Positions 17,803 through 61,178 of a stretch of DNA of 64,000 nucleotides are shown piece by piece; position 1 is the first letter of the stretch; the number at the start of each line of letters is the position of its first letter. The notes below the pieces were generated by a model. That model made no database searches and had not been told where the DNA came from. It was given only the letters and a program-made list of their open reading frames with translations. Both the position numbers and the translations under genes were made by a program. Source of the stretch: Terebella lapidaria (Eukaryota > Annelida > Polychaeta > Terebellida > Terebellidae); contig OX424561.1 of the NCBI GenBank assembly GCA_949152475.1, forward strand, positions 2,852,001 to 2,916,000, written 5' to 3'.

Positions 17803-18177
17803 ATGAAGTTGCTCAGACGCTACAATCGCGTGGGTTCCACTCATCTGAATCACACGAACAAAGAAAATCCAACTGACGTGAAATCTGGAGCCATCAGAGA
17901 TCCAATTTCCGTCGGTTCAGTTGCCAAGACAACGAGATGGCGGAGGACAGAGGCTACCAGGAGAGCCGGTAGCTGCAGGCAGAGGACTCCTCCCGTCATC
18001 AGCCGACTGAGGCAGTCCCATCGAACCAAGAAAGTGACCAGGCCCCAGAGAAAAGTGAGGGCCAGTCACCAGACAGACTGGAGTGGACTAGAATCACTAC
18101 TAGAGACTCACGTCAGCACCCTGATGTTTCCCTCCACCCAGAGGCACGTGGAAACCATACAGGACAACCTGACATAG
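17803..18177 (+). CDS. Gene A copy A: unrecognised basic protein, 124 aa
   Basis: Intronless frame starting MKLLRRYNRVGST and ending VETIQDNLT. I do not recognise the family. The start is chosen because AAGATGAAG is common to all four copies, while longer upstream frames are not open in copy C. There is no signal peptide or TM helix; it is rich in Arg, Ser and Thr. The N-terminal half varies between copies; the C-terminal ~65 residues (RQSHRTKKVTRPQRKV, TDWSGLE, STQRHVETIQDNLT) are almost constant. Relative to copies C and D it lacks three residues (EATRRAG versus EATLSTRRAG), an in-frame 9-bp indel. A TATA box lies 124 bp upstream and AATAAA about 63 bp downstream, so the unit looks like a complete short gene. 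Confidence 0.65.
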   Translation: MKLLRRYNRVGSTHLNHTNKENPTDVKSGAIRDPISVGSVAKTTRWRRTEATRRAGSCRQRTPPVISRLRQSHRTKKVTRPQRKVRASHQTDWSGLESLLETHVSTLMFPSTQRHVETIQDNLT

Positions 18178-18239
18178 TGGTGATGATCTTATAGAAGACT
18201 TCAGGCCTACTATCATTGGTGCTGTTTATCGTACGAATT

Positions 18240-18245
18240 AATAAA
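18240..18245 (+). terminator. Polyadenylation signal, gene A copy A
   Basis: AATAAA 63 bp after the stop, in a context (CGTACGAATTAATAAAGAAT) shared with the other copies. Confidence 0.6.
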
Positions 18246-19638
18246 GAATAGAAACTCTAGTTTTTATTACTCTTATAATTTTCTGACAAATTGGTTACTT
18301 CCACATAAAATTATGAATTGGTGTGCAGACAAGAAATGTGGCCTTAGTTTGGACTTTTTCAGCAAACTGTTTCATAGACAAAACTTTTACAGCAACCAAT
18401 TAGTAAATCGCATAGCTAGCTACCATCTAATACTGCGTGAATATCCAAGAGTCCATAGAAGTACAAAATACCTGTACAGGTGTTCTATTCAGGTAAAGTT
18501 AGAATTACTTTACTGTTTGGCTGAGGTAAGACAATTTACCCAGACTTCATCATGCTTTAAAACATTGTGGGTCTTGAAAAAAAAACATTCATTGAGCTTT
18601 GTTGAGTTGAAAACGTAGTAATTTTTCCGTCCCGAAGAAGACGTTTTGGCTGAGCTTCCACCCCACTTCACTCCAACAAGTGGATAAACAATAATCCCAA
18701 ATGTACCAACATACACATACGTAATATATTATTCATGCTCAACATCGGAATACTCTAGTGTTTTTGCTTCCATTGTCATATATTCATCGAGTAAAGCAGA
18801 AATATACTATTCGGCTAAACTATATCTGAGTTCTTTAATAAAGAATGAGTTCATTTGAATTGCACAACAAAGCTTTCCCCAACTCCATTTTGTCCATTAA
18901 AATGTTGGTTTGCTATTCCTTTTAGACAAATAATTTATCAGGAACTTCAACATTCGTTAGATCAAGTTATCAATTGGACGTGTTATCCAGCACATTCTCC
19001 AGCTGGAAGACCTGGATATCGAATGCTGAGGACATGTGTTGGACTTCAAAAGCTAAAACTTTCCTCCAATCAAACACAGGATTGGAGGATCTACTGGGTT
19101 ACGGAACTGAGTTGGTGATGATCAGTTCTGGTCTGTAATTCAGTGAGAAAGTGCAATATGATATGCAATGAAGGGAAATATTATTCACTCAATATTCCCT
19201 CGGGTTGTGACTGAAGCGGAAATCATTATTAAAATCCTTATGAACGGGGTCTCGATGATTTATTTTGACAGTTGCTGAAGCACATTGATCACTGGCTTTA
19301 AGAATAGCTGGCTCAGTCCATGAAGTATGCCGACACGAAAGTCTCATTGTGGTGCTGGTATTTTGTACTTGTTCAACCGAAAAAATGCGTGTATTGCTCA
19401 GGTCATTATAATACCTGCATTAATCATATTGCAGCTTTTCCTCTAATAAACACTCTATCACGCTAGATAAATACAGCTGTAATCACACTCGCTACCATTC
19501 ACACATTTGGGTGGTTTTGTGCTCCATTTTTTCATTATACAGCCTTCGATGTCTTCTAAACGCTGATACACTGGTAGGCCTACGTTGGTAGTACGATTAG
19601 ATGACATACCCACTTATATAAACAACTGTTTACATTAA

Positions 19639-20407
19639 TCACTGTGGTGAGACTGGATGCACTAACGATCGTTAGTGCATCCCGCAATGGCGAACCCACT
19701 CGCGGTTCGTTTGAATGTTCTTCATTTTCCCGATAATTACGATTGTGATCGATACACACATGTATACATCTGCTGATTCTTATGCGCACGAAACAACCGT
19801 TCGTTGCAAATACATGGCGATTTATGTTGGTTTGAGCATGAACAACTCGTCTGAAAAAAAGCCGAAAGATTCCCTAACGATTGTTTTTGTACAATCGAAG
19901 ATTCGCTAACGAACATGTGAAGATTCCCTAACGATCTTTTTTTTTTATTAATTCAAATCTACGTTATTTAAATGTCGAACGTGAAATAGGTTACCAATTG
20001 GCATGTATTGATGTGTACAGATGATCTTCTAGTACAGATTTTCTATTTTTAATGTGGCATTCGCTAATTTATGTCGCATAAATCAACGAATTCACAATGG
20101 TGTATGGTATGGACCTATTACAATATACACGTATTAGGCCTATATCGTTAGGGAATCTCACTTTTGTCGTTGGTGAATCTTATCGCTAATTCTTTTCCTC
20201 AACATATCTAAACAAAAAAGCGTGATCTGCTTGAAATAACCACGCATGTCTTTGACCAAAACACTAAGCTACCTTCAGAGTATCCATTTATCACAACTGG
20301 ACCTATCATTTGCTCAAATACGGTTAAAAACCAAACTGACCGTGTTTACTGTCTGCCATTGCGGGATGCACTAACGATCGTTAGTGCATCCAGTATCACC
20401 ACAGTGA
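19639..20407. mobile_element. TTAA-flanked non-autonomous DNA transposon
   Basis: TTAA at 19635-19638 and 20408-20411. TIRs start TCACTGTGGTGA and run about 50 bp. Each TIR contains a perfect 28-bp palindrome (19655-19682; 20364-20391) centred on CTAACGATCGTTAG. Copies C and D show the uninterrupted site (TTTACATTAATGTTCCATG). The interior (~660 bp) repeats CCCTAACGAT-type words and has no transposase. A TTAA target fits piggyBac or Kolobok. Confidence 0.7.
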
Positions 20408-20411
20408 TTAA

Positions 20412-21600
20412 TATTCCATGCAATTGATCTCAAGTGGTCAATTAGCAATCTGTACAGACGCCAGCCCCGCTTTGCCTTAAGATTGCGTATCGAGTATGAT
20501 CCACGTAATTTCAATAGCTTCATACCATGTGAAATTTTGGTTCACATCTCGGCCGTTTCATAAAAAACTTACATGAAATTTGGAATATATAATCTCTGTA
20601 TATCCGTGAAGCTGACGCGAATAAGAGATACACGAAACATTACATGGTGTAGTTTCTTAAACTACCCTTAAATTTCAAGTATCCCATCGATATTCATGTC
20701 AAATTGATGTGCAAATGTGTATATCTATTGCGATCCCCTGAAAATGTATTGTGCCGCTGGTCAGTGAAGCGCTAAGTACAGATCAGCGGATTATTCGTAT
20801 GTCAAATACCGTCAATGCTCAGCTGTCGAGAACGTTGTACTCAGGAGTGAGATGTTGTTTTGATTCTTGTTCTATACTGCATTTAGAAAATATTGGAGTC
20901 ACTGAATTCTTTATGTAGTTTGCGGCTGAGTTTACAATGCCAACGGATATAAACAATAACAATATTTTTATGAACCGCCTCTGTGGCCGAGTGGATGGGA
21001 CCGGTGGCTCTTGAAGCAACGAAGCTCAGAGGCGGTAGGTGACGCGGGTTCGATCCCCGTCACCGGCACAAAGTAGGTGGTGTTTTCATCCTGGCAACGC
21101 AAAGGTTTCTCCATTCGAATGTGCTTCCCAAATTCTAAATTGTCACCCGACGGGGGATGGGGAAGACAGGCAGAATTGCCTATCATCATGGACCGTCGTA
21201 AAATAAATCTGATTATTATTATTATTATTATATATAGACGTTATTAATGCGATTGACAATGAATTTCTTATGTCCAGTGTATCTTCTATGCGGAAGATAT
21301 ATAACATGCTATTTTAACCATCAAACTCCCATCAAGTGTTGAGGTAAATCCCGAAACAGGCAGTAGGTTATTGTTCTATGATATGTAGTCTAACCATAGT
21401 CAAGAAACTGTACCCTAAAACTGTCTGTTTCCTATGTAAGTTACATTTGATTGGCGGTGTATAACGTTCAGGATCTGTATGAATATCGACTGGGTCTTCA
21501 ATCTGGCAATTGGACAAGCCTTGTAGTCATGTATAGAACCTACGCAACAATTTTCAGCGAAATCTAGTATCAAACTGCAGAGTTATAGGCCAAACAAAAC
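20412..21600. other. Copy B-specific stretch with a SINE
   Basis: The first ~70 bp match the host segment, then an unmatched ~1.1 kb follows before homology resumes near 21560. Apart from the SINE at 20974-21233 I see nothing I can name. Confidence 0.5.
20974..21233 (+). mobile_element. tRNA-derived SINE (Ser/Leu-type head)
   Basis: The head resembles a class II tRNA gene: A box TGGCCGAGTGG, long variable arm, B box GGGTTCGATCCCC, ending CACCGGCA (21068). An unrelated body follows and an (ATT)n tail after AAAATAAATCTG. The acceptor stem does not pair well, so it is a SINE rather than a tRNA gene. Confidence 0.75.
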
Positions 21601-23203: not shown

Positions 23204-23211
23204 TATATAAA
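23204..23211 (+). promoter_or_regulatory. TATA box of gene A, copy B
   Basis: TATATAAA, 126 bp before the ATG, in the shared block. It survives although an 874 bp insertion ends less than 70 bp upstream. Confidence 0.7.
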
Positions 23212-23329: not shown

Positions 23330-23704
23330 ATGAAGTTGCTCAGACGCTACAATCGCGTGGGTTCCACTGATCTGAACCACACGAACAAAGAAAATCCAGC
23401 TGACGTGAAATCAGGAGCCTCCAGATATTCAGGTTCCGTCGGTTCCATTGCCGAAACGACGAGATGGCTGAGGACAGAGGCTACCAGGAGAGCCGGTAGC
23501 TGCAGGCAGAGGACTCCGCCCGTTATCAGCCGACTGAGACAGTCCCATCGAACCAAGAAAGTAACCAGGCCCCAGAGAAAAGTGAGGACCAGTCACCAGA
23601 CAGACTGGAGTGGATTAGAACCACTACTAGAGACTCACATCAGCACCCTGAAGTTTCCCTCCACCCAGAGACACGTGGAAACCATACAGGATAACCTGAC
23701 ATAG
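23330..23704 (+). CDS. Gene A copy B: unrecognised basic protein, 124 aa
   Basis: Same family and length as copy A, intact. An in-frame upstream ATG at 23258 would add 24 residues (MAHRSSTAAFTLF...), also possible in copy D but not in copies A or C. Differences from copy A include both silent and replacement changes (for example M to K in STLKFPSTQ). The C-terminal basic segment RTKKVTRPQRKV is unchanged. Gene B downstream is deleted, so this copy stands alone. Confidence 0.65.
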   Translation: MKLLRRYNRVGSTDLNHTNKENPADVKSGASRYSGSVGSIAETTRWLRTEATRRAGSCRQRTPPVISRLRQSHRTKKVTRPQRKVRTSHQTDWSGLEPLLETHISTLKFPSTQRHVETIQDNLT

Positions 23705-23766: not shown

Positions 23767-23772
23767 AATAAA
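23767..23772 (+). terminator. Polyadenylation signal, gene A copy B
   Basis: AATAAA 63 bp after the stop, in the same context as copy A. Confidence 0.6.
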
Positions 23773-27155: not shown

Positions 27156-28289
27156 ATAGCAGTCAATGGAAATTTGTATCAAAGGGAGCAGCACAAGGCT
27201 CTCTTCTTGGTCCTTTCGCATTCAATATTCATCTAAACGATCTTTTAAATATGATCAGCGGAATATGTGACGTATTCAACTATGCAGACGATAACACAGA
27301 TTGTTGCTGTGGTAGTGATCCCACACAAATATGTATGAATCTTCAAAGTATTGCACAAATCATGATTTCATGGTTTCGTTTAAATCATCTCAAAGCAAAT
27401 CCTGATAAATTTCAAATGATAATTTTTGATAAAGAATACTGCCCCTACAGTATAAAAATAGACAATTTCACGATCACGGGACAGGAAAAGGTCAAACTAT
27501 TGGGTGTTGAAATAGACAATAAACTGTCGTTCAAAGATCATGTTGCAACCTTATGTAAAAAGGCAGGAAGAAAAATTAATGTTCTAGCAAGACTGGCCTC
27601 TCAACTGAATGTCAGTAGTAAACGAATACTGTTCCATTCCTTCATTATGTCCCATTTTGAATACTGCTCATCAATTTTTCACCTGTGTAGCACTAGTGAT
27701 GCACGCAAAATTGAGAAAATCCAAAAACGAGCATTACAACATGTTTATAAGGATTATAACTGCAGTTATAACAATCTAAGGGAATTATGCAATCTTTCTC
27801 TCATGCATATCAAAAGGATAAGGGGCCTACTAATTCAATTTTACAAAATTATTCATGGAAAAAGTCCGACTTACTTACATGGTTTTGTAACGTTGAAAGA
27901 TATGGTTCATGACACCAGAAATGTACTCCCAGTAGCACTTCCTGACTTCAAGACAATAAGATATGGAAAGAACTCTCTAATTTATCAGGGTGCTCTTTAC
28001 TGGAATAAACTACCATCCGACATCAAAAATAGCTCTTCATTACGTGAGTTTAAAAACAAAATATCCAAATGGGAAGTTCTATGTGTATGTCAAAACTGTT
28101 TAATATGTACTTTGAATAACGTTTGAGTGTGAATCTGTCACTTGTATGTAAATATTATATGACAGCATGATATGTTTTTTCCATCTTTACTTCATCTTGT
28201 ATATACCCACTGTATCTCATATCATGTCGATTACTAGCAGCCAACTGCTAATGTTTTTCGTTCAACCTCCACATCGACGTTTTAAATAA

Positions 28290-28330
<41 letters not shown>
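27152..28330 (+). mobile_element. LINE fragment with RT C-terminus, founding copy
   Basis: A 324-codon frame carries GAAQGSLLGPFAFNIHLND, YADDN, KLLGVEIDNKLSF, RKIEKIQKRALQHVY and YWNKLPSDIK, then CQNCLICTL and stop at 28126. About 200 bp of 3' UTR ends in an (ACTT)n tail. The fingers and endonuclease are missing, so it is a 5'-truncated CR1/Jockey-like LINE. This copy extends 179 bp further 5' than the three downstream copies, identifying it as the original insertion. Confidence 0.88.
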
Positions 28331-31210
28331 GTAAAATATTGTTGTGACGTCACACCATTGTCTGAACAGTGGATTCGCCCGCACGAATCCACCGTTTGCC
28401 CCATACGAATTCATTGGTTCGCTGATGCATGTAATGTCATGTATGTATGTCAATTTCCGTGTACATCAGGAAAACATTTTCCGTCAGATTCACGACTTTG
28501 TTCATAATCAGTAATCGCAAGATCATCTAATGTTGAATTTCCAACATCGTTCAGAATGTTTGCAGCATTAAATGACACCATAGTACTATCCACGGTTTCA
28601 TTTAAAAATGTGTCCAAATTATCTGCGATGTTGAAATTTAATGTCAACCAGTCGATGTCCAGTAACAGAAATGCGAGAATGTATGTGGTATAGGTCACTG
28701 TTTCGCTGTGTTTTGAGTACAATATATTAAAACTCACCATCATCCAATGGAGATGTCCATTGAAACACGTTCCACGTATCACTCTGCTGCTTAATACTAC
28801 TCATCCACTAAATGATTGCATTTAACCCGTGTGCCACCTTCTTAAGATGGTGAAACCCTGCCGATTGTTGGCAGTAAATTTCACGACTTTAGTACCGCAT
28901 ACAAAATATGAGCTTTTGTCATAAAGCTTCTGGTAGTCCGAAGTGCCTTTTTGCAGTTGGAGTGTATAGAGGAGTCATTTTCTTGTTTTAGAAAAATACA
29001 ATCTTCGACATGAAACGTCTGGATCATTCCGGATCATAACGATGAAGTTGGTACATCCGTTCTTAATATCAACCACGTAATCTTTAGAATACATCGACTT
29101 TTTACATAGTGGAGCAGTCAATGTCTATGAGCTGAGAATTACTTTTTGAATTTACCGCCTACATTTGTCACAAAATGCCCGACTGTCTTTGACACATTTA
29201 CGAAACGCGCCATTTTCAAAATATCACGTGGATTTGGACAACACTCAGACCTGAAATATCATCTATTATTTTGATGATTTTCAAAGAATGGCTGACTTAC
29301 TTGGGATTGGTACATCGTAGACTCCATAACGAGCTATCCACAGCCATGTGACAATGCGTTTTTCCCCGTAAAATTGAGTCTGAATATCGGATACTTTCAA
29401 CGTCAGGTGCCACGAAATCGTGTTTACATATTTCCCAGGTCAAAGTTTGATGTATCCTTACGCGAAACTCATCTTTGGTCATGTCGATTTTTGTAATCTG
29501 TATAATCCACTGATCACACCAAATAATCCACTTACTGAATACTGAACGGGACTACGGCGGAAAATGTTCGTAGCACGACACATTGCATTGTGTTTTGTGA
29601 TATCAATTGGTAGCTGTCATCCTCGGAATATTTCCTTCGGTTGTGAAGACCATATTTTGCGACTATGAGATTCGGTAGCTTCGTCTCCAAATGTTTTCCC
29701 GCGAGGCACCAACAGTCCCATGTGTTACGCATGTATATCGGCATATATGACGGAGGCAATCCCAGAAACATGTACATAATCGAAGACATATTAGTTCATA
29801 GACAAATAATCGTTGTAGATCGGGGAATGACAAACACTGAAAACCATGTTTCCAGACCATAACTGACATATCGCTCACCACGTGAGTTTGTATTCGCTCC
29901 GGGGAGAAAGCCGTTGAAATCCGTGCACAGGGTTTTGAGTTCAATGTGAAGAGCAATACTCACCAGCTGCTCAAGTCCCGTCTCGGTCAGTGATAGCATG
30001 GAACCACACGGCAAATCATCGAGCACATGTACTGGGGCGGATTATTAACCCTCTTTCGACCCTTCTTGCACATTGGGAGTTCATTTTCACAAATAGGATA
30101 ATGTAATATTATATTTGTTCAGGTACGTACACATAATTTAAGCGTTCTGTATATTGAAGCCCCGTCTCTATCAAAACTGATCAAGTATATATGAGTACCT
30201 ATTCCATAATTTCGTGGTTAAATACAGGAATGTCGATAACAAAATGAAATTGTATGTAGATGTATCTGTATATGTATGTCAAGAAATTTAAATTAGGAGC
30301 CCTGATTGGCACAAGTATATGATGTGATTATCAATAAGCAGCTATATGAGGTATTCATATCACCAACATGTATATATTTCTCTAAATCAAGAAGTTTACT
30401 TGATTGTAATATTCCAATGATCAATTCAAGGCAATGTGATTGGTATCAGCAACAGAATAGAGTGCCATCTGACAAAACCATCATCTCATATTTTTCTGAC
30501 TCCAGATGACTCCAGATGTTGCTGACAACTCCACATCACTTTCCTGACAGCTCAGCCAGAAGACAACACAACTAGAAGCACCATAAATCCTGGTTCAAGT
30601 CTCAATCAGAAGACAGGCAATAGCAGCTCCACACCACTTGAATGATACCCCCAATGACAGGCACCCAGGAGCAATCACTCAGTTGGCCAACAATATGGAT
30701 GTCAAAACATAACAAAAACTTGTGTTTTAAAGTTTGCACCAATATACACATGAATATTAAAACAATATATATATATAAATTCAAATTAAGTGCATGTTGG
30801 CCATGTTGGATATGTAATTCTGAAACACCTGTACAGAATTGCACACTACCATTTTGGGTATTGTAATGTCACTATAAGACAATTGGATATCTTATACAAC
30901 AGCAATTTTGGGATTCAATGATCAATTAATAATATTTTCATATTTTATATTTTATTGGATAAAGTGGCCAACACATTGTATGTTTCAAAATTTGTTATTG
31001 ATACACATGTGTAGGTCAGAAATACATTATGAAGATTTGAATGGCAGTGTATCAAGTGGCCATGTGCAACATTGTTTGCCAAATATGATAAATTCATAAT
31101 CTTTTTGATTGGTATTATATTTGATTTATTTTGATTGATTTATGTTGTTTACCTTCCATGTACAAACTTTGTAAAATAAACATATACATGCATTAATTGT
31201 ATTCATAATT
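27331..31210 (+). repeat. Tandem unit 1 (~3.88 kb)
   Basis: LINE 3' part (27331-28330) followed by a 2.88 kb module (28331-31210) beginning GTAAAATATTGTTGTGACG. The module carries short minus-strand frames (110 aa at 28450-28782, 97 aa at 29663-29956) that I do not recognise and do not call as genes. There are no splice signals convincing enough to join them. Confidence 0.85.
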
Positions 31211-32168
31211 ATGTATGAATCTTCAAAGTATTGCACAAATCATGATTTCATGGTTTCGTTTAAATCATCTCAAAGCAAATCCTGATAAATTTCAAATGAT
31301 AATTTTTGATAAAGAATACTGCCCCTACAGTATAAAAATAGACAATTTCACGATCACGGGACAGGAAAAGGTCAAACTATTGGGTGTTGAAATAGACAAT
31401 AAACTGTCGTTCAAAGATCATGTTGCAACCTTATGTAAAAAGGCAGGAAGAAAAATTAATGTTCTAGCAAGACTGGCCTCTCAACTGAATGTCAGTAGTA
31501 AACGAATACTGTTCCATTCCTTCATTATGTCCCATTTTGAATACTGCTCATCAATTTTTCACCTGTGTAGCACTAGTGATGCACGCAAAATCGAGAAAAT
31601 CCAAAAACGAGCATTACAACATGTTTATAAGGATTATAACTGCAGTTATAACAATCTAAGGGAATTATGCAATCTTTCTCTCATGCATATCAAAAGGATA
31701 AGGGGCCTACTAATTCAATTTTACAAAATTATTCATGGAAAAAGTCCGACTTACTTACATGGTTTTGTAACGTTGAAAGATATGGTTCATGACACCAGAA
31801 ATGTACTCCCAGTAGCACTTCCTGACTTCAAGACAATAAGATATGGAAAGAACTCTCTAATTTATCAGGGTGCTCTTTACTGGAATAAACTACCATCGGA
31901 CATCAAAAATAGCTCTTCATTACGTGAGTTTAAAAACAAAATATCCAAATGGGAAGTTCTATGTGTATGTCAAAACTGTTTAATATGTACTTTGAATAAC
32001 GTTTGAGTGTGAATCTGTCACTTGTATGTAAATATTATATGACAGCATGATATGTTTTTTCCATCTTTACTTCATCTTGTATATACCCACTGTATCTCAT
32101 ATCATGTCGATTACTAGCAGCCAACTGCTAATGTTTTTCGTTCAACCTCCACATCGACGTTTTAAATA

Positions 32169-32208
<40 letters not shown>

Positions 32209-35088
32209 GTAAAATATTGTTGTGACGTCACACCATTGTCTGAACAGTGGATTCGCCCGCACGAATCCACCGTTTGCCCCATACGAATTCATTGGTTCGC
32301 TGATGCATGTAATGTCATGTATGTATGTCAATTTCCGTGTACATCAGGAAAACATTTTCCGTCAGATTCACGACTTTGTTCATAATCAGTAATCGCAAGA
32401 TCATCTAATGTTGAATTTCCAACATCGTTCAGAATGTTTGCAGCATTAAATGACACCATAGTACTATCCACGGTTTCATTTAAAAATGTGTCCAAATTAT
32501 CTGCGATGTTGAAATTTAATGTCAACCAGTCGATGTCCAGTAACAGAAATGCGAGAATGTATGTGGTATAGGTCACTGTTTCGCTGTGTTTTGAGTACAA
32601 TATATTAAAACTCACCATCATCCAATGGAGATGTCCATTGAAACACGTTCCACGTATCACTCTGCTGCTTAATACTACTCATCCACTAAATGATTGCATT
32701 TAACCCGTGTGCCACCTTCTTAAGATGGTGAAACCCTGCCGATTGTTGGCAGTAAATTTCACGACTTTAGTACCGCATACAAAATATGAGCTTTTGTCAT
32801 AAAGCTTCTGGTAGTCCGAAGTGCCTTTTTGCAGTTGGAGTGTATAGAGGAGTCATTTTCTTGTTTTAGAAAAATACAATCTTCGACATGAAACGTCTGG
32901 ATCATTCCGGATCATAACGATGAAGTTGGTACATCCGTTCTTAATATCAACCACGTAATCTTTAGAATACATCGACTTTTTACATAGTGGAGCAGTCAAT
33001 GTCTATGAGCTGAGAATTACTTTTTGAATTTACCGCCTACATTTGTCACAAAATGCCCGACTGTCTTTGACACATTTACGAAACGCGCCATTTTCAAAAT
33101 ATCACGTGGATTTGGACAACACTCAGACCTGAAATATCATCTATTATTTTGATGATTTTCAAAGAATGGCTGACTTACTTGGGATTGGTACATCGTAGAC
33201 TCCATAACGAGCTATCCACAGCCATGTGACAATGCGTTTTTCCCCGTAAAATTGAGTCTGAATATCGGATACTTTCAACGTCAGGTGCCACGAAATCGTG
33301 TTTACATATTTCCCAGGTCAAAGTTTGATGTATCCTTACGCGAAACTCATCTTTGGTCATGTCGATTTTTGTAATCTGTATAATCCACTGATCACACCAA
33401 ATAATCCACTTACTGAATACTGAACGGGACTACGGCGGAAAATGTTCGTAGCACGACACATTGCATTGTGTTTTGTGATATCAATTGGTAGCTGTCATCC
33501 TCGGAATATTTCCTTCGGTTGTGAAGACCATATTTTGCGACTATGAGATTTGGTAGCTTCGTCTCCAAATGTTTTCCCGCGAGGCACCAACAGTCCCATG
33601 TGTTACGCATGTATATCGGCATATATGACGGAGGCAATCCCAGAAACATGTACATAATCGAAGACATATTAGTTCATAGACAAATAATCGTTGTAGATCG
33701 GGGAATGACAAACACTGAAAACCATGTTTCCAGACCATAACTGACATATCGCTCACCACGTGAGTTTGTATTCGCTCCGGGGAGAAAGCCGTTGAAATCC
33801 GTGCACAGGGTTTTGAGTTCAATGTGAAGAGCAATACTCACCAGCTGCTCAAGTCCCGTCTCGGTCAGTGATAGCATGGAACCACACGGCAAATCATCGA
33901 GCACATGTACTGGGGCGGATTATTAACCCTCTTTCGACCCTTCTTGCACATTGGGAGTTCATTTTCACAAATAGGATAATATAATATTATATTTGTTCAG
34001 GTACGTACACATAATTTAAGCGTTCTGTATATTGAAGCCCCGTCTCTATCAAAACTGATCAAGTATATATGAGTACCTATTCCATAATTTCGTGGTTAAA
34101 TACAGGAATGTCGATAACAAAATGAAATTGTATGTAGATGTATCTGTATATGTATGTCAAGAAATTTAAATTAGGAGCCCTGATTGGCACAAGTATATGA
34201 TGTGATTATCAATAAGCAGCTATATGAGGTATTCATATCACCAACATGTATATATTTCTCTAAATCAAGAAGTTTACTTGATTGTAATATTCCAATGATC
34301 AATTCAAGGCAATGTGATTGGTATCAGCAACAGAATAGAGTGCCATCTGACAAAACCATCATCTCATATTTTTCTGACTCCAGATGACTCCAGATGTTGC
34401 TGACAACTCCACATCACTTTCCTGACAGCTCAGCCAGAAGACAACACAACTAGAAGCACCATAAATCCTGGTTCAAGTCTCAATCAGAAGACAGGCAATA
34501 GCAGCTCCACACCACTTGAATGATACCCCCAATGACAGGCACCCAGGAGCAATCACTCAGTTGGCCAACAATATGGATGTCAAAACATAACAAAAACTTG
34601 TGTTTTAAAGTTTGCACCAATATACACATGAATATTAAAACAATATATATATATAAATTCAAATTAAGTGCATGTTGGCCATGTTGGATATGTAATTCTG
34701 AAACACCTGTACAGAATTGCACACTACCATTTTGGGTATTGTAATGTCACTATAAGACAATTGGATATCTTATACAACAGCAATTTTGGGATTCAATGAT
34801 CAATTAATAATATTTTCATATTTTATATTTTATTGGATAAAGTGGCCAACACATTGTATGTTTCAAAATTTGTTATTGATACACATGTGTAGGTCAGAAA
34901 TACATTATGAAGATTTGAATGGCAGTGTGTCAAGTGGCCATGTGCAACATTGTTTGCCAAATATGATAAATTCATAATCTTTTTGATTGGTATTATATTT
35001 GATTTATTTTGATTGATTTATGTTGTTTACCTTCCATGTACAAACTTTGTAAAATAAACATATACATGCATTAATTGTATTCATAATT
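31211..35088 (+). repeat. Tandem unit 2 (~3.88 kb)
   Basis: Begins ATGTATGAATCTTCAAAG. Nearly identical to unit 1 by eye; the LINE frame (31215-32006, 263 codons) is unchanged. The join to unit 1 is within the LINE, so the tandem arose after the LINE insertion. Confidence 0.88.
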
Positions 35089-36046
35089 ATGTATGAATCT
35101 TCAAAGTATTGCACAAATCATGATTTCATGGTTTCGTTTAAATCATCTCAAAGCAAATCCTGATAAATTTCAAATGATAATTTTTGATAAAGAATACTGC
35201 CCCTACAGTATAAAAATAGACAATTTCACGATCACGGGACAGGAAAAGGTCAAACTATTGGGTGTTGAAATAGACAATAAACTGTCGTTCAAAGATCATG
35301 TTGCAACCTTATGTAAAAAGGCAGGAAGAAAAATTAATGTTCTAGCAAGACTGGCCTGTCAACTGAATGTCAGTAGTGAACGAATACTGTTCCATTCCTT
35401 CATTATGTCCCATTTTGAATACTGCTCATCAATTTTTCACCTGTGTAGCACTAGTGATGCACGCAAAATCGAGAAAATCCAAAAACGAGCATTACAACAT
35501 GTTTATAAGGATTATAACTGCAGTTATAACAATCTAAGGGAATTATGCAATCTTTCTCTCATGCATATCAAAAGGATAAGGGGCCTACTAATTCAATTTT
35601 ACAAAATTATTCATGGAAAAAGTCCGACTTACTTACATGGTTTTGTAACGTTGAAAGATATGGTTCATGACACCAGAAATGTACTCCCAGTAGCACTTCC
35701 TGACTTCAAGACAATAAGATATGGAAAGAACTCTCTAATTTATCAGGGTGCTCTTTACTGGAATAAACTACCATCGGACATCAAAAATAGCTCTTCATTA
35801 CGTGAGTTTAAAAACAAAATATCCAAATGGGAAGTTCTATGTGTATGTCAAAACTGTTTAATATGTACTTTGAATAACGTTTGAGTGTGAATCTGTCACT
35901 TGTATGTAAATATTATATGACAGCATGATATGTTTTTTCCATCTTTACTTCATCTTGTATATACCCACTGTATCTCATATCATGTCGATTACTAGCAGCC
36001 AACTGCTAATGTTTTTCGTTCAACCTCCACATCGACGTTATAAATA

Positions 36047-36078
<32 letters not shown>

Positions 36079-39000
36079 GTAAAATATTGTTGTGACGTCA
36101 CACCATTGTCTGAACAGTGGATTCGCCCGCACGAATCCACCGTTTGCCCCATACGAATTCATTGGTTCGCTGATGCATGTAATGTCATGTATGTATGTCA
36201 ATTTCCGTGTACATCAGGAAAACATTTTCCGTCAGATTCACGACTTTGTTCATAATCAGTAATCGCAAGATCATCTAATGTTGAATTTCCAACATCGTTC
36301 AGAATGTTTGCAGCATTAAATGACACCATAGTACTATCCACGGTTTCATTTAAAAATGTGTCCAAATTATCTGCGATGTTGAAATTTAATGTCAACCAGT
36401 CGATGTCCAGTAACAGAAATGCGAGAATGTATGTGGTATAGGTCACTGTTTCGCTGTGTTTTGAGTACAATATATTAAAACTCACCATCATCCAATGGAG
36501 ATGTCCATTGAAACACGTTCCACGTATCACTCTGCTGCTTAATACTACTCATCCACTAAATGATTGCATTTAACCCGTGTGCCACCTTCTTAAGATGGTG
36601 AAACCCTGCCGATTGTTGGCAGTAAATTTCACGACTTTAGTACCGCATACAAAATATGAGCTTTTGTCATAAAGCTTCTGGTAGTCCGAAGTGCCTTTTT
36701 GCAGTTGGAGTGTATAGAGGAGTCATTTTCTTGTTTTAGAAAAATACAATCTTCGACATGAAACGTCTGGATCATTCCGGATCATAACGATGAAGTTGGT
36801 ACATCCGTTCTTAATATCAACCACGTAATCTTTAGAATACATCGACTTTTTACATAGTGGAGCAGTCAATGTCTATGAGCTGAGAATTACTTTTTGAATT
36901 TACCGCCTACATTTGTCACAAAATGCCCGACTGTCTTTGACACATTTACGAAACGCGCCATTTTCAAAATATCACGTGGATTTGGACAACACTCAGACCT
37001 GAAATATCATCTATTATTTTGATGATTTTCAAAGAATGGCTGACTTACTTGGGATTGGTACATCGTAGACTCCATAACGAGCTATCCACAGCCATGTGAC
37101 AATGCGTTTTTCCCCGTAAAATTGAGTCTGAATATCGGATACTTTCAACGTCAGGTGCCACGAAATCGTGTTTACATATTTCCCAGGTCAAAGTTTGATG
37201 TATCCTTACGCGAAACTCATCTTTGGTCATGTCGATTTTTGTAATCTGTATAATCCACTGATCACACCAAATAATCCACTTACTGAATACTGAACGGGAC
37301 TACGGCGGAAAATGTTCGTAGCACGACACATTGCATTGTGTTTTGTGATATCAATTGGTAGCTGTCATCCTCGGAATATTTCCTTCGGTTGTGAAGACCA
37401 TATTTTGCGACTATGAGATTCGGTAGCTTCGTCTCCAAATGTTTTCCCGCGAGGCACCAACAGTCCCATGTGTTACGCATGTATATCGGCATATATGACG
37501 GAGGCAATCCCAGAAACATGTACATAATCGAAGACATATTAGTTCATAGACAAATAATCGTTGTAGATCGGGGAATGACAAACACTGAAAACCATGTTTC
37601 CAGACCATAACTGACATATCGCTCACCACGTGAGTTTGTATTCGCTCCGGGGAGAAAGCCGTTGAAATCCGTGCACAGGGTTTTGAGTTCAATGTGAAGA
37701 GCAATACTCACCAGCTGCTCAAGTCCCGTCTCGGTCAGTGATAGCATGGAACCACACGGCAAATCATCGAGCACATGTACTGGGGCGGATTATTAACCCT
37801 CTTTCGACCCTTCTTGCACATTGGGAGTTCATTTTCACAAATAGGATAATTTAATGCATCTTTGCTTTGTTCGCGCTGGGTCCCTATTTTCAATAAGGAC
37901 CTATGTGGAGATCCTTATGTTTGTGCGCGGTCTTATTCGATAATGGGGCGATGCATTAAATAGGATAAGGTGCTTGGCGTACGGTCTTTGGCAATAATAA
38001 CACCCTCCGCGCTACGCGCGTCGGGCATTATTATTGCCAAAGACCTACGCCTCGTACCTTATCCTATATATAATATTATATTTGTTCAGGTACGTACACA
38101 TAATTTAAGCGTTCTGTATATTGAAGCCCCGTCTCTATCAAAACTGATCAAGTATATATGAGTACCTATTCCATAATTTCGTGGTTAAATACAGGAATGT
38201 CGATAACAAAATGAAATTGTATGTAGATGTATCTGTATATGTATGTCAAGAAATTTAAATTAGGAGCCCTGATTGGCACAAGTATATGATGTGATTATCA
38301 ATAAGCAGCTATATGAGGTATTCATATCACCAACATGTATATATTTCTCTAAATCAAGAAGTTTACTTGATTGTAATATTCCAATGATCAATTCAAGGCA
38401 ATGTGATTGGTATCAGCAACAGAATAGAGTGCCATCTGACAAAACCATCATCTCATATTTTTCTGACTCCAGATGACTCCAGATGTTGCTGACAACTCCA
38501 CATCACTTTCCTGACAGCTCAGCCAGAAGACAACACAACTAGAAGCACCATAAATCCTGGTTCAAGTCTCAATCAGAAGACAGGCAATAGCAGCTCCACA
38601 CCACTTGAATGATACCCCCAATGACAGGCACCCAGGAGCAATCACTCAGTTGGCCAACAATATGGATGTCAAAACATAACAAAAACTTGTGTTTTAAAGT
38701 TTGCACCAATATACACATGAATATTAAAACAATATATATATATAAATTCAAATTAAGTGCATGTTGGCCATGTTGGATATGTAATTCTGAAACACCTGTA
38801 CAGAATTGCACACTACCATTTTGGGTATTGTAATGTCACTATAAGACAATTGGATATCTTATACAACAGCAATTTTGGGATTCAATGATCAATTAATAAT
38901 ATTTTCATATTTTATATTTTATTGGATAAAGTGGCCAACACATTGTATGTTTCAAAATTTGTTATTGATACACATGTGTAGGTCAGAAATACATTATGAA

Positions 39001-39177
39001 GATTTGAATGGCAGTGTATCAAGTGGCCATGTGCAACATTGTTTGCCAAATATGATAAATTCATAATCTTTTTGATTGGTATTATATTTGATTTATTTTG
39101 ATTGATTTATGTTGTTTACCTTCCATGTACAAACTTTGTAAAATAAACATATACATGCATTAATTGTATTCATAATT
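35089..39177 (+). repeat. Tandem unit 3 with 219-bp hairpin insertion
   Basis: Same unit; the LINE frame (35093-35884) has two replacements (LACQLNVSSER). A compound hairpin at 37850-38069 is absent from units 1, 2 and 4. Confidence 0.88.
37850..38069. mobile_element. Compound hairpin MITE in tandem unit 3
   Basis: Two adjacent palindromes. The first (37851-37959) has ends TTAATGCATC and GATGCATTAA and is bracketed by ATAGGATAA on both sides. The second (37960-38067) has arms including GGTCTTTGGCAATAATA and a GCGCTACGCGC loop region. Units 1, 2 and 4 give the empty site (ATAGGATAATGTAATATT). A 9-bp target repeat would fit Mutator-like MITEs. Confidence 0.7.
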
Positions 39178-40575
39178 ATGTATGAATCTTCAAAGTATTG
39201 CACAAATCATGATTTCATGGTTTCGTTTAAATCATCTCAAAGCAAATCCTGATAAATTTCAAATGATAATTTTTGATAAAGAATACTGCCCCTACAGTAT
39301 AAAAATAGACAATTTCACGATCACGGGACAGGAAAAGGTCAAACTATTGGGTGTTGAAATAGACAATAAACTGTCGTTCAAAGATCATGTTGCAACCTTG
39401 TGTAAAAAGGCAGGAAGAAAAATTAATGTTCTAGCAAGACTGGCCTCTCAACTGAATGTCAGTAGTAAACGAATACTGTTCCATTCCTTCATTATGTCCC
39501 ATTTTGAATACTGCTCATCAATTTTTCACCTGTGTAGCACTAGTGATGCACGCAAAATCGAGAAAATCCAAAAACGAGCATTACAACATGTTTATAAGGA
39601 TTATAACTGCAGTTATAACAATCTAAGGGAATTATGCAATCTTTCTCTCATGCATATCAAAAGGATAAGGGGCCTACTAATTCAATTTTACAAAATTATT
39701 CATGGAAAAAGTCCGACTTACTTACATGGTTTTGTAACGTTGAAAGATATGGTTCATGACACCAGAAATGTACTCCCAGTAGCACTTCCTGACTTCAAGA
39801 CAATAAGATATGGAAAGAACTCTCTAATTTATCAGGGTGCTCTTTACTGGAATAAACTACCATCGGACATCAAAAATAGCTCTTCATTACATGAGTTTAA
39901 AAACAAAATATCCAAATGGGAAGTTCTATGTGTATGTCAAAACTGTTTAATATGTACTTTGAATAACGTTTGAGTGTGAATCTGTCACTTGTATGTAAAT
40001 ATTATATGACAGCATGATATGTTTTTTCCATCTTTACTTCATCTTGTATATACCCACTGTATCTCATATCAGGGGGCCGTTTCTCGAAGCTGACGCAAAT
40101 TTTGAATCTGCGCTGGGTTCTGCGACCGGTCGCAGATAGAATCTGCGTGCGTTTCCCGACGGCCACGCAAACCCCACGCTGAGCCAGTGCATACTGGCAA
40201 AATCTGCGAGGGGTCGCAGGTCATTCCTCACTTGCAAACGAACATGTTTACCATAGAAACTTAAAATATGGTAGGGGAGGGCTATACAGACCTACTCCTC
40301 AGGCATTCTATATGTGTAGGCCGACCAGTCTTCTGAAACAAACACAGGGTAGATATAGGCCTAATCAGTACATTTTTCGACTCCTGTGGCAGAAAGTGAT
40401 TTCACATTTTTTTACGAGAGTAAAAATGTTATGACTAATCACTATCATTAGGCCTACTGGTCAGTCAATCACCCTTGACAATTTCATGTAAAATGACAGC
40501 CCTTGTACACCATACGATCACTCAATTGTGCAGATCCAACAAACGCGCCTATAGATATAATGACACAGTAACTTA

Positions 40576-48630: not shown

Positions 48631-48666
<36 letters not shown>

Positions 48667-52700: not shown

Positions 52701-52708
52701 TATATAAA
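52701..52708 (+). promoter_or_regulatory. TATA box of gene A, copy C
   Basis: TATATAAA, 124 bp before the ATG; surrounding CTTTATATAAAGCCTGATTG is conserved. Confidence 0.7.
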
Positions 52709-52824
52709 GCCTGATTGAGAGCGTGATCGTAACAACTATTTCACGCTATTCGTTGTCACTTAGATTATCAACAGCAGCTTTCATACTATTTTGAGCCTAT
52801 GCTGGGAAACGAGAACCATCCAAG

Positions 52825-53208
52825 ATGAAGTTGTTCAGATGCTACAACCGCGTGGGCTCCACTGATCTGGATCCCATAAACACAGAAGATTCAGATGGTG
52901 TGGAATCTGGAGCCTCCAGAGATCCAATTTCCGTCGGTTCCGTTGCCAAGACGACGAGATGGCGGAGGACAGAGGCGACGTTATCTACCAGGAGAGCCGG
53001 TAGCTGCAGGCAGAGGACTCCGCCTGTCATCAACCGATTGAGGCAGTCCCATCGAACCAAGAAAGTAACCAGGCCCCAGAGAAAAGTGAGGGCCAGTCAC
53101 CAGACAGACTGGAGTGGACTAGAACCACTACTAGAGACTCACGTCAGCACCCTGATGTTTCCCTCCACCCAGAGACACGTGGAAACCATACAGGACAACC
53201 TGACATAG
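52825..53208 (+). CDS. Gene A copy C: unrecognised basic protein, 127 aa
   Basis: The most divergent copy at the N-terminus (MKLFRCYNRVGSTDLDPINTEDSDGVESGAS split across the variable region), yet the same length class and the same C-terminus as the others. It carries the 9-bp insertion relative to copies A and B. An upstream in-frame stop (TTTTGA near 52790) excludes the longer start that copies B and D would allow, supporting this ATG for the family. TATA and AATAAA are at the same spacing. Gene B follows 1.6 kb downstream on the same strand. Confidence 0.65.
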   Translation: MKLFRCYNRVGSTDLDPINTEDSDGVESGASRDPISVGSVAKTTRWRRTEATLSTRRAGSCRQRTPPVINRLRQSHRTKKVTRPQRKVRASHQTDWSGLEPLLETHVSTLMFPSTQRHVETIQDNLT

Positions 53209-53262: not shown

Positions 53263-53268
53263 AATAAA
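53263..53268 (+). terminator. Polyadenylation signal, gene A copy C
   Basis: AATAAA 55 bp after the stop, in the shared 3' context (GAAACTCTAGTTTTTATTAC follows). Confidence 0.6.
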
Positions 53269-54439: not shown

Positions 54440-54854
54440 CTGTATACGTTCTCTTTAATAATTTATCAGGAAACAATTGTGTTTATTGGATTTCGCTACT
54501 CGTTGGTGATATCATTCAGAATACCAATCTGCCTTGGAAGCCACAGGTATTGAGCTCCATGACAGATAAGGAACAGCTCTACAGCGTTATTCTAGTCGAG
54601 GACGGTCTGTTGGCTGCAGGGACGTTACTTTCTGGCCACTCAGCGCTCACCTATAATTTCATTGACAATGCGTGACATTATATGAAGGTGAAAATCTGTT
54701 TTGTCAAGTCTGAGAGTTGTCATTTGAAGCGAAAATCGTTAGCAGAATCAACATCTTTATGGGCTCTAGGATACATGTATCGAATATGTTCATAGATGGC
54801 AAAACACGCTTGCATTCCGTACGAGGTTCTTATTTGTCTTCTCGTGGACACAAT
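54440..54854 (+). other. Near-identical block upstream of gene B
   Basis: Compared by eye with 62438-62837, only about three differences appear in ~400 bp, far fewer than in the flanks. It contains an open frame ending YNFIDNA at 54675 in both copies (SSMTDKEQLYSVILVEDGLL). No start or exon structure can be defined. Confidence 0.4.
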
Positions 54855-56687
54855 ATGAACTTCTCAGGACTTATTGTGGCATTGTTACTCGGATGTATAC
54901 GGGTAATTTTGGCGGAGTGTTTGTTCGAGAAGCATGTGGGTGTGTCCCTCTCGGCCACTGACGTCTTGGCGAGCTATGACGTGACCACAGAGACCAGGTG
55001 TCTGAGTCTGTGTCTGAGGACCGGATCTGTCTGCCTGGCCACTAATATGGAGTACAACCAACAGAGGGGACTTATCTGTCAGCTGATCTCCAACAGAACT
55101 CTCCTGACAAACCTCGTACACAACCAAATGGCAACGGTCGCCATCAGGAAAGGTCAGGTCTATTTATCATAGAATATATCTTAAACTGCGAGTTCGGTCT
55201 GGCAGGAATGCTCGCCCTTTTTCAGCTTACCAGGCTATTTGTGCAGACAAGCTTTTGTTGTGTTTTACGTCCGACGTCCATCGTTTCTCTGGGTCTGTGC
55301 TCTAATTTCGTCAGAACACAGCTTGGGCCGATATCTAAAGTACATGTAATATTTTTTATTTTTTTAATGACCATTTTTTGGCGACCATTTTAGTGCTGAT
55401 AAATGTCCAATTTGACACATTTTTTTCTCACAATTGACGTGATAACTATTTTTTTATTATTTGTTTACAGGTATGTTATTTTAGGCCAGTTGTAACGTGT
55501 TTTATATAAGGATAATAGAGCCTGAATCATTCGTACGGCCCGAAATGGTGGCCCAAAGGGCCGAACATGGGCCGGAATGCAGAAATTTGCTTCTAGGACC
55601 AGAACGCTGGTGCATAGTGCTTAAGATTGTGAGCACTATCATAAGCTTATTGGGAGCCATACATGGTGGATCTTTTGGTGATCCTAAAATTGACATCGGA
55701 TGAACTTGAGTGGTGAATCTCAAGGTCACATTTGACCTGAAATATAACGCAAGCAGATGGGGCTTAGGTTTGTATCATATGTTGGACCTTTTTGGGAACT
55801 GGAGCTCAGATCTTTTGGGAACTTGACCTCAGATGACATTTAATGGAAAATCTCGAGGTCACATTTCAAAGAAATATATAAATTGACATCTACAGACAGG
55901 ACGGGGACATAAAACCCTTATGTTTGTGATACATAAATATATGCAATGTTAGGTGGATTTTTTGTGACATTGTTGATCCCAGACTACTTAAAGCAATGAA
56001 CAGCACGTTTGAGCTAGTAAGTTTGCTGGTGAGCTAGCTACAGCGCCCTTTTGTGCTATGTTTCTTTTATTCCTCGAAAAATGTCATGTAGGCCCTACTC
56101 ATGGCACTGGTAATATGTATTTCCTAGTCATAACCCTATTGGCACCGATCCTGAATTATGAGCATGCTAAGATACTTAGAAATATCAATGACATTGTGTC
56201 TAATTACCTCGGTATTGTCTCAGACTTCACAGTTGTTCCCTCAACAACACAACCAGTCGGCATGACAACAGCGACAACAACAACAATTGGCGTCACCATG
56301 GCGACCACGAGTCAAGTGCCAGACATTACCACAAGTCAAGTTAATATGGAAATCACAAATCAGGGTTTCTCAGCAACGAGCAGAGTTGCCATAGTAACGG
56401 CCAACATGTCCACAGAGTTCGCGGACCGATCGATCCAGACCTCTGTCAGGTTGACCAGTGAGTCCCCGGACGTGACGACGCCAGGCGGCCCCCAGGACAC
56501 GACACCACCTCCAGGCGCCCTCGTGGTGTGTACTCATGATGGCCAGTACATCAGGGACCCACTGGATTGCTCCGTCTTCTACCACTGCAGTCATGGGACG
56601 CCCTTCCGAAACCAGTGTGCCGGCGGGCAGCACTTCAGCACTGCACACTTGGTTTGTGTGGCCATAGGCGAGACGCCTTGTCCCTGA
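54855..56687 (+). CDS. Gene B copy C: secreted PAN + chitin-binding type-2 protein
   Basis: Two exons, 54855-55152 and 56224-56687 (AAAG|GTCAGG; CTCAG|AC), 253 residues. Signal peptide MNFSGLIVALLLGCIRVILA; then an apple/PAN-like region with CLFEKHVG, TETRCLSLCLRTGSVCLATN and GLICQLIS; then a Thr/Ser-rich mucin-like linker (VPSTTQP to PPPG). It ends with a peritrophin-A/ChtBD2 domain: CTHDGQYIRDPLDCSVFYHC, NQCAGGQHF, LVCVAIGETPC, with the expected six Cys. Expected to be secreted and to bind chitin or glycans (inference). An upstream in-frame ATG at 54717 exists, but this start gives the signal peptide. Possible poly(A) signals are AATAAA at 57304 and 57308 inside a SINE. Confidence 0.72.
55153..56223. 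other. Gene B intron
   Basis: Holds a fragment of the AGCTTACCGGCA-type element (about 55224-55330) and noncoding sequence shared with copy D from 63136 on. Words like TCAAGGTCACATTTGACC occur twice (55720, 55856). Confidence 0.5.
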
Positions 56688-58460: not shown

Positions 58461-58581
58461 TTTAAGGTGCGCTATGAGCACATTAGTGAGCTATGGTATA
58501 TTTGAGTTGGTGCTAGGGGCCTATCTAGCCAATGAGGGGGGTTAGATCACCATGGTGAAAGTCGAATACCGCACCTTACTC
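58461..58581. mobile_element. 121-bp MITE with 9-bp TSD
   Basis: GTTATTCAG is duplicated at 58452-58460 and 58582-58590. Inverted ends AAGGTGCG(C/G)TAT. Copies A and B have the single-copy site (GTGTTATTCAGCACATTC at 24119). A 9-bp duplication suggests a Mutator-like family. Confidence 0.75.
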
Positions 58582-58933
58582 GTTATTCAGCACATTCTCC
58601 AGCTGGAAGACCTGGATATCGAATGCTGAGGACATGTGTTGGACTTCAAAAGCTAAAACTTTCCTCCAGTCGCACACATGAGTGGAGGATCTACATGTAC
58701 TGGGAGTAGGGAATTGAGTTGGTGATGATCAGTTCTGGTCTATTATATCTATTATATCATGATGTGCTATGAAGGGAAATCTAGCCCACTCAAATATATG
58801 CCCGCGGGTTGCGACTGAAGGGGAATTCATTAGTAGAATCATTACAAACGGGATCTCTATGATTTATTTTCACAGTTGCTGAAGCACATTGATCACTGGC
58901 TTTACAAATAGCTGGCTCAGTACACGAAATATG

Positions 58934-59058
58934 GGCCCAAGTATCATATCCTGCGCCTTCCTCTATATTCAATAAGGATTAAAAAGGTCCGAGACGGATT
59001 AAATGGTATGTTTTCAGTGGACGAGTAGTATTAAGGAGCAGTGTACGGTACTTGGGCC
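58934..59058. mobile_element. 125-bp hAT-like MITE with 8-bp TSD
   Basis: GAAATATG is repeated exactly at 58926-58933 and 59059-59066. TIRs are GGCCCAAGTA and TACTTGGGCC. Copies A and B have the uninterrupted GAAGTATGCCGAC. An 8-bp TSD fits hAT. Confidence 0.78.
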
Positions 59059-59226
59059 GAAATATGCCGACACAAAAGTCTCATTGTGCTGCTGATATTT
59101 TGTACTTGTTCAACCAAAAAAATACATGTATTGCTCAGGTCATTATAATACCTGCATTAATCATATTGCAGCTTTTCCTCTAATAAACACTCCATCACGG
59201 TAAATAAACACAGCTGTAATCACACT

Positions 59227-59770
59227 TGTAGCCCGAGGGGCAAGGTTCACCCAACAACTCAACCAGCCGCTTCAAAAGTTTATTGTAACCCAAAGGGTAC
59301 CTGAGAAATATACATGCAGTGTAAAAACAGTGGGAATGACAGACATATAAACACGATTGTGATTTATACAATTAGAAATGAAATGATGATGTTATGATAT
59401 TTACTAGACACTCAAATATGTTCATAACAATAATACTAGTAGAAGGTATATAATTCTAGACACGAATACACTAAATAACCATTATTGAATTACAGTTTTT
59501 ATCGCAGTTTTTACACCTAACACAATATGGTATTTGAACCAGTAAGATACGGAATACCTACCCCCGACAAGCCTGGTGCACCCTCGACTCCACACAACAG
59601 CGACGGCTCTCTCACACCTACAATTGCACGGACCCTTTAATTCCATTGCAACAATAATCGAGACATTCGGAACACGGTATTTCACCTTTAAGTAGTCTTA
59701 CTATATATAAGAATAATGAATAAATGACTAAAGATGACTAAAAGATAAATGTCTAAAGACACAGGTTACA
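59227..59770. mobile_element. Solo LTR fossil (TG...CA), 544 bp
   Basis: Begins TGTAGCCCGAGGGGC and ends GGTTACA, flanked by CACT on both sides (59223-59226, 59771-59774). Copies B and C (19487, 26393) show the empty site. No internal retroelement genes accompany it, so it is a recombined single LTR. A 4-bp duplication is compatible with a Gypsy/Ty3-like origin. Younger than the segmental duplication because it is absent from the other copies. Confidence 0.6.
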
Positions 59771-60668
59771 CACTCACTACCATTCACTCATTTGGGGGGA
59801 TTTGTGCTCCATTTCTTCATTATACAGCCTTCGATGTCTTGTAGACGCTGATTCACTGGTACGTTGGTAATACGATTAGATGACATACCCACTTATATAA
59901 ACAACTGTTTACATTAATGTTCCATGCGATTGATTTTAAGTGGTCAATAATCAATCTGTACATACGCCAGCCCCGCTCAGGCTGGATGGATACAGTCAAA
60001 CGTTCATCTACAATTTTACCTGAAATAATTGGACTGGCCGTACGTAAAATACCGCATTCACATATATGCTGCCCATTCATTATACAGTATGATGTAAATC
60101 GAGTCAAGGAATGCCAATAAACATTTATGTGAAATGTTCATGTCTACAGTATAGTATCTAGATTTGAGTTACATATTTAATTTCGAGTTTAGTGATAGAT
60201 GGGAAGTACGCTACATTGTTTGCTTATTCCAACAGCAAAAAAAAAACAATAATACACACTCCATGTCATTGGTAAAATTGACCTGATATGAACGAAAAGT
60301 ACTGAAAGGGTCCAGGACAAAGCAACTTCGCCTCGTTACTTAGTTACATCAGCAAATTCATTTGGATTCATCAGTCTGAAGATATTTGAACATAACATGT
60401 GAATGTATAGCGCCTACACATGCATACAAGTGCAGATAGGAAAAACATTTGCCGTGGAATTTGATGTCATACTGAAGTGTGAATTGCCTATAGTCACGGG
60501 CTGATGCCTAATTGGTAGTTCAATAAGTCAACACGACACGGGTCTTATTGCAATTCTTTGAAGTGAATTGCTTCCCTTTTGATCTTTCAATGATTTACTT
60601 TCAGTCGGGGATGTTAATTTTATGTCAAGTAGATCTACGTGTTGACAGATCTATGGTGTCGGTGCCTT
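59771..60668 (+). repeat. Tandem host segment, copy D (5' part)
   Basis: Shared header and upstream block without the insertions seen in B and C. It gives the uninterrupted reference for the TTAA site (TTTACATTAATGTTCC) and most of the gene A upstream region. Confidence 0.75.
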
Positions 60669-60676
60669 TATATAAA
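60669..60676 (+). promoter_or_regulatory. TATA box of gene A, copy D
   Basis: TATATAAA, 126 bp before the ATG, same block as the other copies. Confidence 0.7.
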
Positions 60677-60794
60677 GCCTGATTGAGAGCGTGAACGTAT
60701 TAATCACTTCACGCTATTCGAATTGGCACATAGATCATCAACAGCAGCTTTCACACTGTTTTGTGCCCACGACCAAAAACAAGAACCATCCAAG

Positions 60795-61178
60795 ATGAAG
60801 TTGCTCAGACGCTACAACCGCGTGGGTTCCACTGATCTGAACCACGCGAACAGAGAAAATCCAGCTGACGTGAAATCTGGAGCCTCCAGAGATTCAGGTT
60901 CCGTCGGTTCCATTGCCGAAACGACGAGATGGAGAAGGACAGAGGCGACGTTTTCCACCACGAGAGCCGTTAGCTGCAGACAGCGCACACCGCCCGTCAT
61001 CAGCCGACTGAGGCAGTCCCATCGAACCAAGAAAGTAACCAGGCCCCAGAGAAAAGTGAGGGCCAGTCACCAGACAGACTGGAGTGGACTAGAATCACTA
61101 GTAGAGACTCACGTCAGCACCCTGATGTTTCCTTCCACCCAGAGACACGTGGAAACCATACAGGACAACCTGACATAG
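60795..61178 (+). CDS. Gene A copy D: unrecognised basic protein, 127 aa
   Basis: Intact frame with the three-residue insertion (EATFSTTRAVSCRQRTPP). In the last ~175 bp it differs from copy A at four sites, three of them silent, which points to selection on the protein. TATA and AATAAA are conserved. An in-frame ATG 72 bp upstream (60723) is possible but not shared by all copies. Gene B copy D follows 1.66 kb downstream. Confidence 0.65.
   Translation: MKLLRRYNRVGSTDLNHANRENPADVKSGASRDSGSVGSIAETTRWRRTEATFSTTRAVSCRQRTPPVISRLRQSHRTKKVTRPQRKVRASHQTDWSGLESLVETHVSTLMFPSTQRHVETIQDNLT

Follow-up and report, generated by a model that had tools for sequence, protein, structure and literature searches.

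Four short, apparently single-exon frames of Terebella lapidaria as a probable diverged branch of a tandemly arrayed protein family

Are four short open reading frames that lie within 44 kb of one another in the polychaete Terebella lapidaria protein-coding genes, and if so, do they stand alone? The frames, here called copies A, B, C and D, lie in a 64,000-nucleotide (nt) stretch of contig OX424561.1 (C7:2852001-2916000; hereafter the window) of a 761.6 Mb genome. An initial annotation, made from the letters of the window, had described them as a four-member family of intronless proteins. Our analysis makes it likely that they are genuine single-exon protein genes and a diverged four-copy C7 branch of a family whose bulk forms a tandem array on another contig, C6; we propose that the products are basic docking proteins.

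All four frames translate without an internal stop, over 124 (A), 124 (B), 127 (C) and 127 (D) codons. The sole length difference within them is, as had been claimed, one in-frame gap of 9 nt, which separates A and B from C and D. Decay by insertion and deletion outside the frames had also been described, and of the nine gap runs in the flanks (2, 2, 2, 8, 1, 1, 7, 1 and 8 nt) none has a length divisible by three; four of the nine lie at alignment ends, where the matching of the copies stops. The element TATATAAA starts 124 (A), 126 (B), 124 (C) and 126 (D) nt upstream of the ATG, just as first reported, and AATAAA begins after 62 (A), 62 (B), 54 (C) and 61 (D) nt past the stop codon; the 55-63 bp given earlier is the same interval counted from one. 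Copy C has an additional ATG at 52799-52801, 26 nt upstream of its start codon; in A, B and D no such ATG was seen within 100 nt of the start. To judge from the open frames, the window genes are apparently without introns.

We then asked where the four copies vary. In 14 stretches counted across them, variable sites number 1 in 30 around the TATA box and 10 in 165 over nt 211-375 of frame A (three stretches, the last 165 nt), and make up 17-42% of each of the remaining ten stretches. Pairwise dN/dS (omega, Nei-Gojobori method, six pairs) is 0.12-0.30 for codons 55-127, the last 73 codons, and hence well under 1 in the C-terminal part. A bias to silent sites had been noted there for A versus D, and this pair has seven silent and four replacement changes (omega 0.17). 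When the same changes were placed at random on like bases and the silent counts compared, codons 55-127 held 13 silent changes out of 22 in the proposed frame versus 6.5 expected (P = 0.0022), and the other five frames gave P values of 0.55 and 0.99 (sense) and 0.63, 0.07 and 0.93 (antisense). Over the entire frame the silent excess has P = 0.027. The evidence for coding sits in the C-terminal part and is frame-specific, and is not overwhelming by itself.

A search of the genome with copy C at an expectation value (E) of up to 10 gave three extra matches. Two were judged to be chance, one at C4:679637 (a repeat read in frame) and one at C14:28479050 (with internal stops). The third, at C6:13821557-13821709, ends near its own stop codon, like the window proteins, and is the end of an open 131-codon frame, the first of what we call class 1. 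Four classes of apparently single-exon proteins of 97-132 residues were found, with genes on both strands in tandem units; an uninterrupted frame of about this length is likewise present in all four window copies. Class 1 has 20 loci, 19 on C6 and one on C9; 17 rows span the full query, 16 of which have no stop, and the other three loci are each in two pieces. Class 2 has 19 loci (10 whole and open) and class 4 has 29 (28 whole and open). Class 3, obtained through the search with class 1, which returns it at E of about 0.002-0.007, has 12 loci on C6 and C9, four of them without a stop and eight with one in-frame TGA. Together the classes hold 80 loci, all within C6:13.81-14.44 Mb except five at C9:4.165-4.178 Mb that form one stray unit. 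The 11 class 3 genes on C6 are spaced 42-63 kb apart, which points to an array of about eleven repeats. At its edge, in C6:13814000-13816500, a minus-strand frame resembles a C-type lectin by eye.

With the C7 copies the total is about 84 loci, and the supposed four-member family is rather a small branch of this larger one. The loci were tallied by hand from the rows listed, and the numbers are lower bounds. Weak rows were omitted unread, namely (as examples) C13, C4 and C6:34.5 Mb in the class 1 search, C1, C2, C3 and C11-C13 in that with class 2, C14 and C11 with class 3, and C107 and C2 with class 4; an 18-residue class 1 scrap at C6:13824823 was excluded.

Classes 1-3 and the window proteins have a common tail, roughly LExHxSxxxxPxxQ...QD, which ends within a few residues of the stop codon. 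The initial annotation had singled out a basic RTKKVTRPQRKV core; this is indeed constant among the window copies, but it is not common to the C6 relatives, and the hallmark of the family is instead the last ~31 residues. In class 1 the tail has omega 0.19-0.54 versus 0.57-0.84 for the rest (eight pairs drawn from five of the 16 copies that are open). What links class 4 to the others is chiefly an N-terminal YVPHVP region (BLASTP E of 2e-5 with class 1 and of 1e-4 with class 2, each a single comparison), a YVP(H/Y)VP stretch being found in classes 1, 2 and 4; as its tail is shortened, it is no more than a probable member. A poly(A)-signal-like hexamer occurs within 250 nt in all six C6 genes scanned and a TATA-like one in three of the six, and in one class 2 gene (L068) both TATATAAG and AATAAA are visible by eye.

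The first C6 match was the best of the whole genome, and hence the link was tested with parts of the family that had been obtained other than through resemblance to the window. A profile of the class 2 and 3 tails was run against 5,359 six-frame fragments (158 kb, none of it from C6) and ranked the four window frames first to fourth (E 0.00017, 0.0003, 0.0025 and 0.007; next 0.79). A C6-tail profile that includes class 1 also placed them first to fourth in this set (E from 5e-7 to 1e-4; next 0.31). A single hhalign comparison of the window and C6 families gave a probability of 92.7% and E = 4e-7; the 31 aligned columns, C-terminal in both, are 48% identical. In turn, all four window copies appear among the matches of a class 1 query, but with a weak E of 2-10. 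That the four frames are a diverged C7 branch of a C6-centred family is well supported by these sequence comparisons. Collectively, the earlier observation is confirmed and its interpretation is partly supported: the data are those of a protein-coding, apparently intronless family whose members have their own TATA box and poly(A) signal and a constrained C-terminal part.

The claim that the proteins belong to no recognised family also holds, as neither the window proteins nor the C6 members have a convincing match in Pfam, NCBIfam, PHROGs, PDB or IMG/VR. Matches judged to be chance are a PDB topoisomerase (E = 0.32), Pfam Ubiquitin_3 in one of six C6 proteins (E = 0.19) and a PHROG for copy B (E = 0.11). 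The ATPase inhibitor IF1 (IATP, PF04568) matches copy B over residues 12-76 at E = 0.004 (18 bits vs a cut-off of 25) and copy D at E = 0.067, with nothing at E<=1 for A and C; the best IATP-like exon of the genome (L005) reaches 22 bits, also below the cut-off. We rejected an IF1 origin, since copy B is below the cut-off and this exon is unlike it by eye. Two peptides from another frame of copy C have no Pfam match. The accessible parts of the literature on intronless or orphan tandem families in molluscs, and on the family motifs, hold nothing on this family.

An AlphaFold2 model of copy A, made with the other three copies, has a mean predicted local distance difference test score (pLDDT) of 52.5 and a single helix, residues 97-106, inside the C-terminal motif; as the model is poor (predicted template modelling score 0.11), the helix is only suggestive. 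Such a low-confidence model fits, and does not prove, a disordered protein with a short helical tail. We propose that each gene yields a short, unspliced mRNA from its own TATA box, and that the encoded product would be small, strongly basic and mostly unstructured. A short amphipathic helix, probably formed by the constrained last ~31 residues, would dock on a single conserved partner; the N-terminal part may drift or undergo rapid adaptation. That the genes apparently lack introns, have TATA boxes and occur in so many copies suggests that they are suited to rapid or strong bursts of expression.

Besides the poor structural model, several points weigh against this interpretation. The N-terminal part of the window proteins has no significant coding constraint (silent test P = 0.40; omega 0.43-0.90 for codons 1-54), the 162 nt of highest conservation lack a significant silent excess (5 of 10, P = 0.17), and omega in the last 54 codons alone has a wide spread (0.10-0.60). 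New stops, of which 2.06 are expected, number zero, an absence that is not significant (P = 0.12). Site patterns in the four copies conflict (nine AC|BD, six of these within 27 nt, three AB|CD and two AD|BC) and fit patchy exchange between copies, which makes simple omega tests less reliable. The link to C6 began with a weak genome-wide match (E = 2.7). Because class 2 came to notice by eye, through its likeness to the motif, the class 2 and 3 profile test is not fully independent, and when scaled to the whole genome the profile including class 1 gives E 0.0025-0.58. The tendency of identities between the window proteins and class 1 to fall on family-conserved positions reaches only P = 0.058, the YVP(H/Y)VP stretch is absent from the window copies and class 3, and three of the six C6 genes scanned have no TATA-like site.

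The alternative that survives best, though we think it improbable, is that the sequences encode basic proteins of sperm nuclei or histone-like chromatin proteins, the family having been amplified for dosage. Replication-dependent histone arrays consist of genes for small basic proteins, without introns, with several classes on both strands in tandem units. The present family is alike in each of these respects: its genes are apparently single-exon and its window proteins are strongly basic (isoelectric point 10.8-11.7; 22-25 lysine plus arginine residues per 124-127). Unlike replication-dependent histones, however, it has poly(A) signals, there is no histone or protamine match in Pfam, and the window has no Rfam match at gathering score and thus no histone stem-loop. 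Furthermore, the constrained tail is mixed in composition rather than basic.

Somewhat less probable still is an origin in part of a mobile element or virus with a promoter and gene of its own. A single exon with a TATA box in many copies, repeat-rich surroundings with reverse-transcriptase frames nearby and one C6-like unit alone on C9 would all suit such an element. However, the genome holds just these four close copies, with no further ones at E<=0.001 (queries: protein C and 679 nt of DNA around A), and the C6 copies form a tandem array. Neither copy A nor class 1 has a relative in IMG/VR, and the window proteins have no mobile-element match in Pfam or PHROGs, although no search for terminal repeats was made. 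A match to a known transposon or noncoding repeat, which the initial annotation had named as grounds for abandoning its view, was not found.

It is very unlikely that these are chance or decayed frames, open only through the youth of segmental duplications, with any transcript noncoding. The copies are 87-93% identical over longer blocks, noncoding DNA included, and the want of a coding signature in the N-terminal part and of extremity in the stop count would be expected on this account. Neither the frame-specific silent excess in codons 55-127 (P = 0.002) nor the similar tail in three classes on another contig agrees with it. In RNA folding the conserved part has a slight edge over shuffled sequence (z -1.84) that is not significant, with 11 of 200 shuffles folding as well; the window has no Rfam match at gathering score, and a noncoding RNA is not supported.

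Table 1. Features of the window (positions in the 64,000-nt stretch)
Feature	Position	Strand	Basis or remark
Copy A, apparently single-exon open reading frame, 124 residues	17803..18177	+	translation; relatives by genome, profile and profile-profile searches
Copy B, open reading frame, 124 residues	23330..23704	+	translation
Copy C, open reading frame, 127 residues	52825..53208	+	translation
Copy D, open reading frame, 127 residues	60795..61178	+	translation
TATA box, copy A	17679..17686	+	sequence; lies in the 30 nt counted, with 1 variable site across four copies
TATA box, copy B	23204..23211	+	sequence
TATA box, copy C	52701..52708	+	sequence
TATA box, copy D	60669..60676	+	sequence
Poly(A) signal, copy A	18240..18245	+	sequence
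Poly(A) signal, copy B	23767..23772	+	sequence
Poly(A) signal, copy C	53263..53268	+	sequence
Poly(A) signal, copy D	61240..61245	+	sequence
C-terminal motif common with C6 family, copy A (residues 93-123)	18079..18171	+	hhalign
C-terminal motif, copy B	23606..23698	+	family comparison and hhalign
C-terminal motif, copy C	53110..53202	+	family comparison and hhalign
C-terminal motif, copy D	61080..61172	+	family comparison and hhalign
Exon of neighbouring PAN_1 gene (not a family member)	54714..55172	+	duplicated with C and D; not found beside A, B

The order of matching blocks (Table 1 gives the features) is that of tandem units, each with an upstream block followed by the frame; those of C and D continue ~1.5 kb downstream with a PAN_1/CBM_14 gene, which has a CBM_14 match and a PAN_1 match of 20 bits, just under the cut-off of 21.4. 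In A and B the alignment breaks off shortly after the frame and resumes in DNA at this gene's end or past it. It is highly improbable that the frames are a leader exon or upstream frame of the neighbour rather than independent genes: C and D do lie upstream of it on the same strand and were duplicated with it, and a 24-residue scrap of the CBM_14-containing exon persists beside B, but the frame is kept in A and B although the PAN exon was not found beside them, the poly(A) signal of each copy precedes the PAN gene, the further C7 PAN copies (L028 and L029) have no family tail in the surrounding DNA examined, and the C6 DNA examined has no PAN or CBM_14 match at E<=1e-4.

The PAN_1 and CBM_14 genes are themselves a local family with a signal-peptide-like start, found at window positions 54714-56687 and 62697-64000 and at L028 and L029 on C7; at the protein level, the PAN exons of the three other copies detected on C7 have 94-96% identity to the first one. 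Elsewhere in the window there is a 33-bp satellite at 2872-4814 (about 59 copies, 96% match); owing to its unit length, three frames stay open over more than 650 codons. Tandem repeats of ~3.88 kb, 99.7% identical, lie at 27324-40071 and have frames of 265-335 codons; the one frame tested matches the reverse transcriptase family RVT_1.

Clustered small intronless genes are also known from the insect Bearded/E(spl)-complex and plant SAUR families. The likeness to the present family is one of working, and Pfam, the only sequence comparison, gives no such match. Lophotrochin and trochin, as described in PMC7441323, are spiralian-specific, lineage-restricted proteins with a conserved C-terminal motif, lophotrochin being similar to DUF4476. 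The present family is comparable in being a probably lineage-restricted protein with such a motif, and differs in that Pfam reports no DUF4476 for the window or C6 proteins; we judge lophotrochin to be a different protein.

We return to the reading of the four frames as genes of a C6-centred family, an apparently undescribed one that is new but of a familiar kind, and whose interest lies mainly in the array and the common tail. More tentatively, and with less confidence than we attach to that reading, we suggest that the whole may be an array organised like a histone cluster but made up of non-histone genes. On one contig, some eleven repeats of 42-63 kb would each hold as many as five single-exon genes, in four related classes of which three have a common C-terminal docking motif; a diverged four-gene outpost would lie on another contig. 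Such an unrecognised family might have been amplified as a set, with N-termini that differ by class for different tasks and a single partner in common.

Gene sets easily miss short single-exon frames that have no known domain. Here about 84 loci lie outside all the domain libraries tried, yet the tail is under protein-level selection in two separate branches. Knowing the partner of the tail and when the genes are expressed would reveal whether, in this lineage, arrays of small intronless genes are a means of burst expression.

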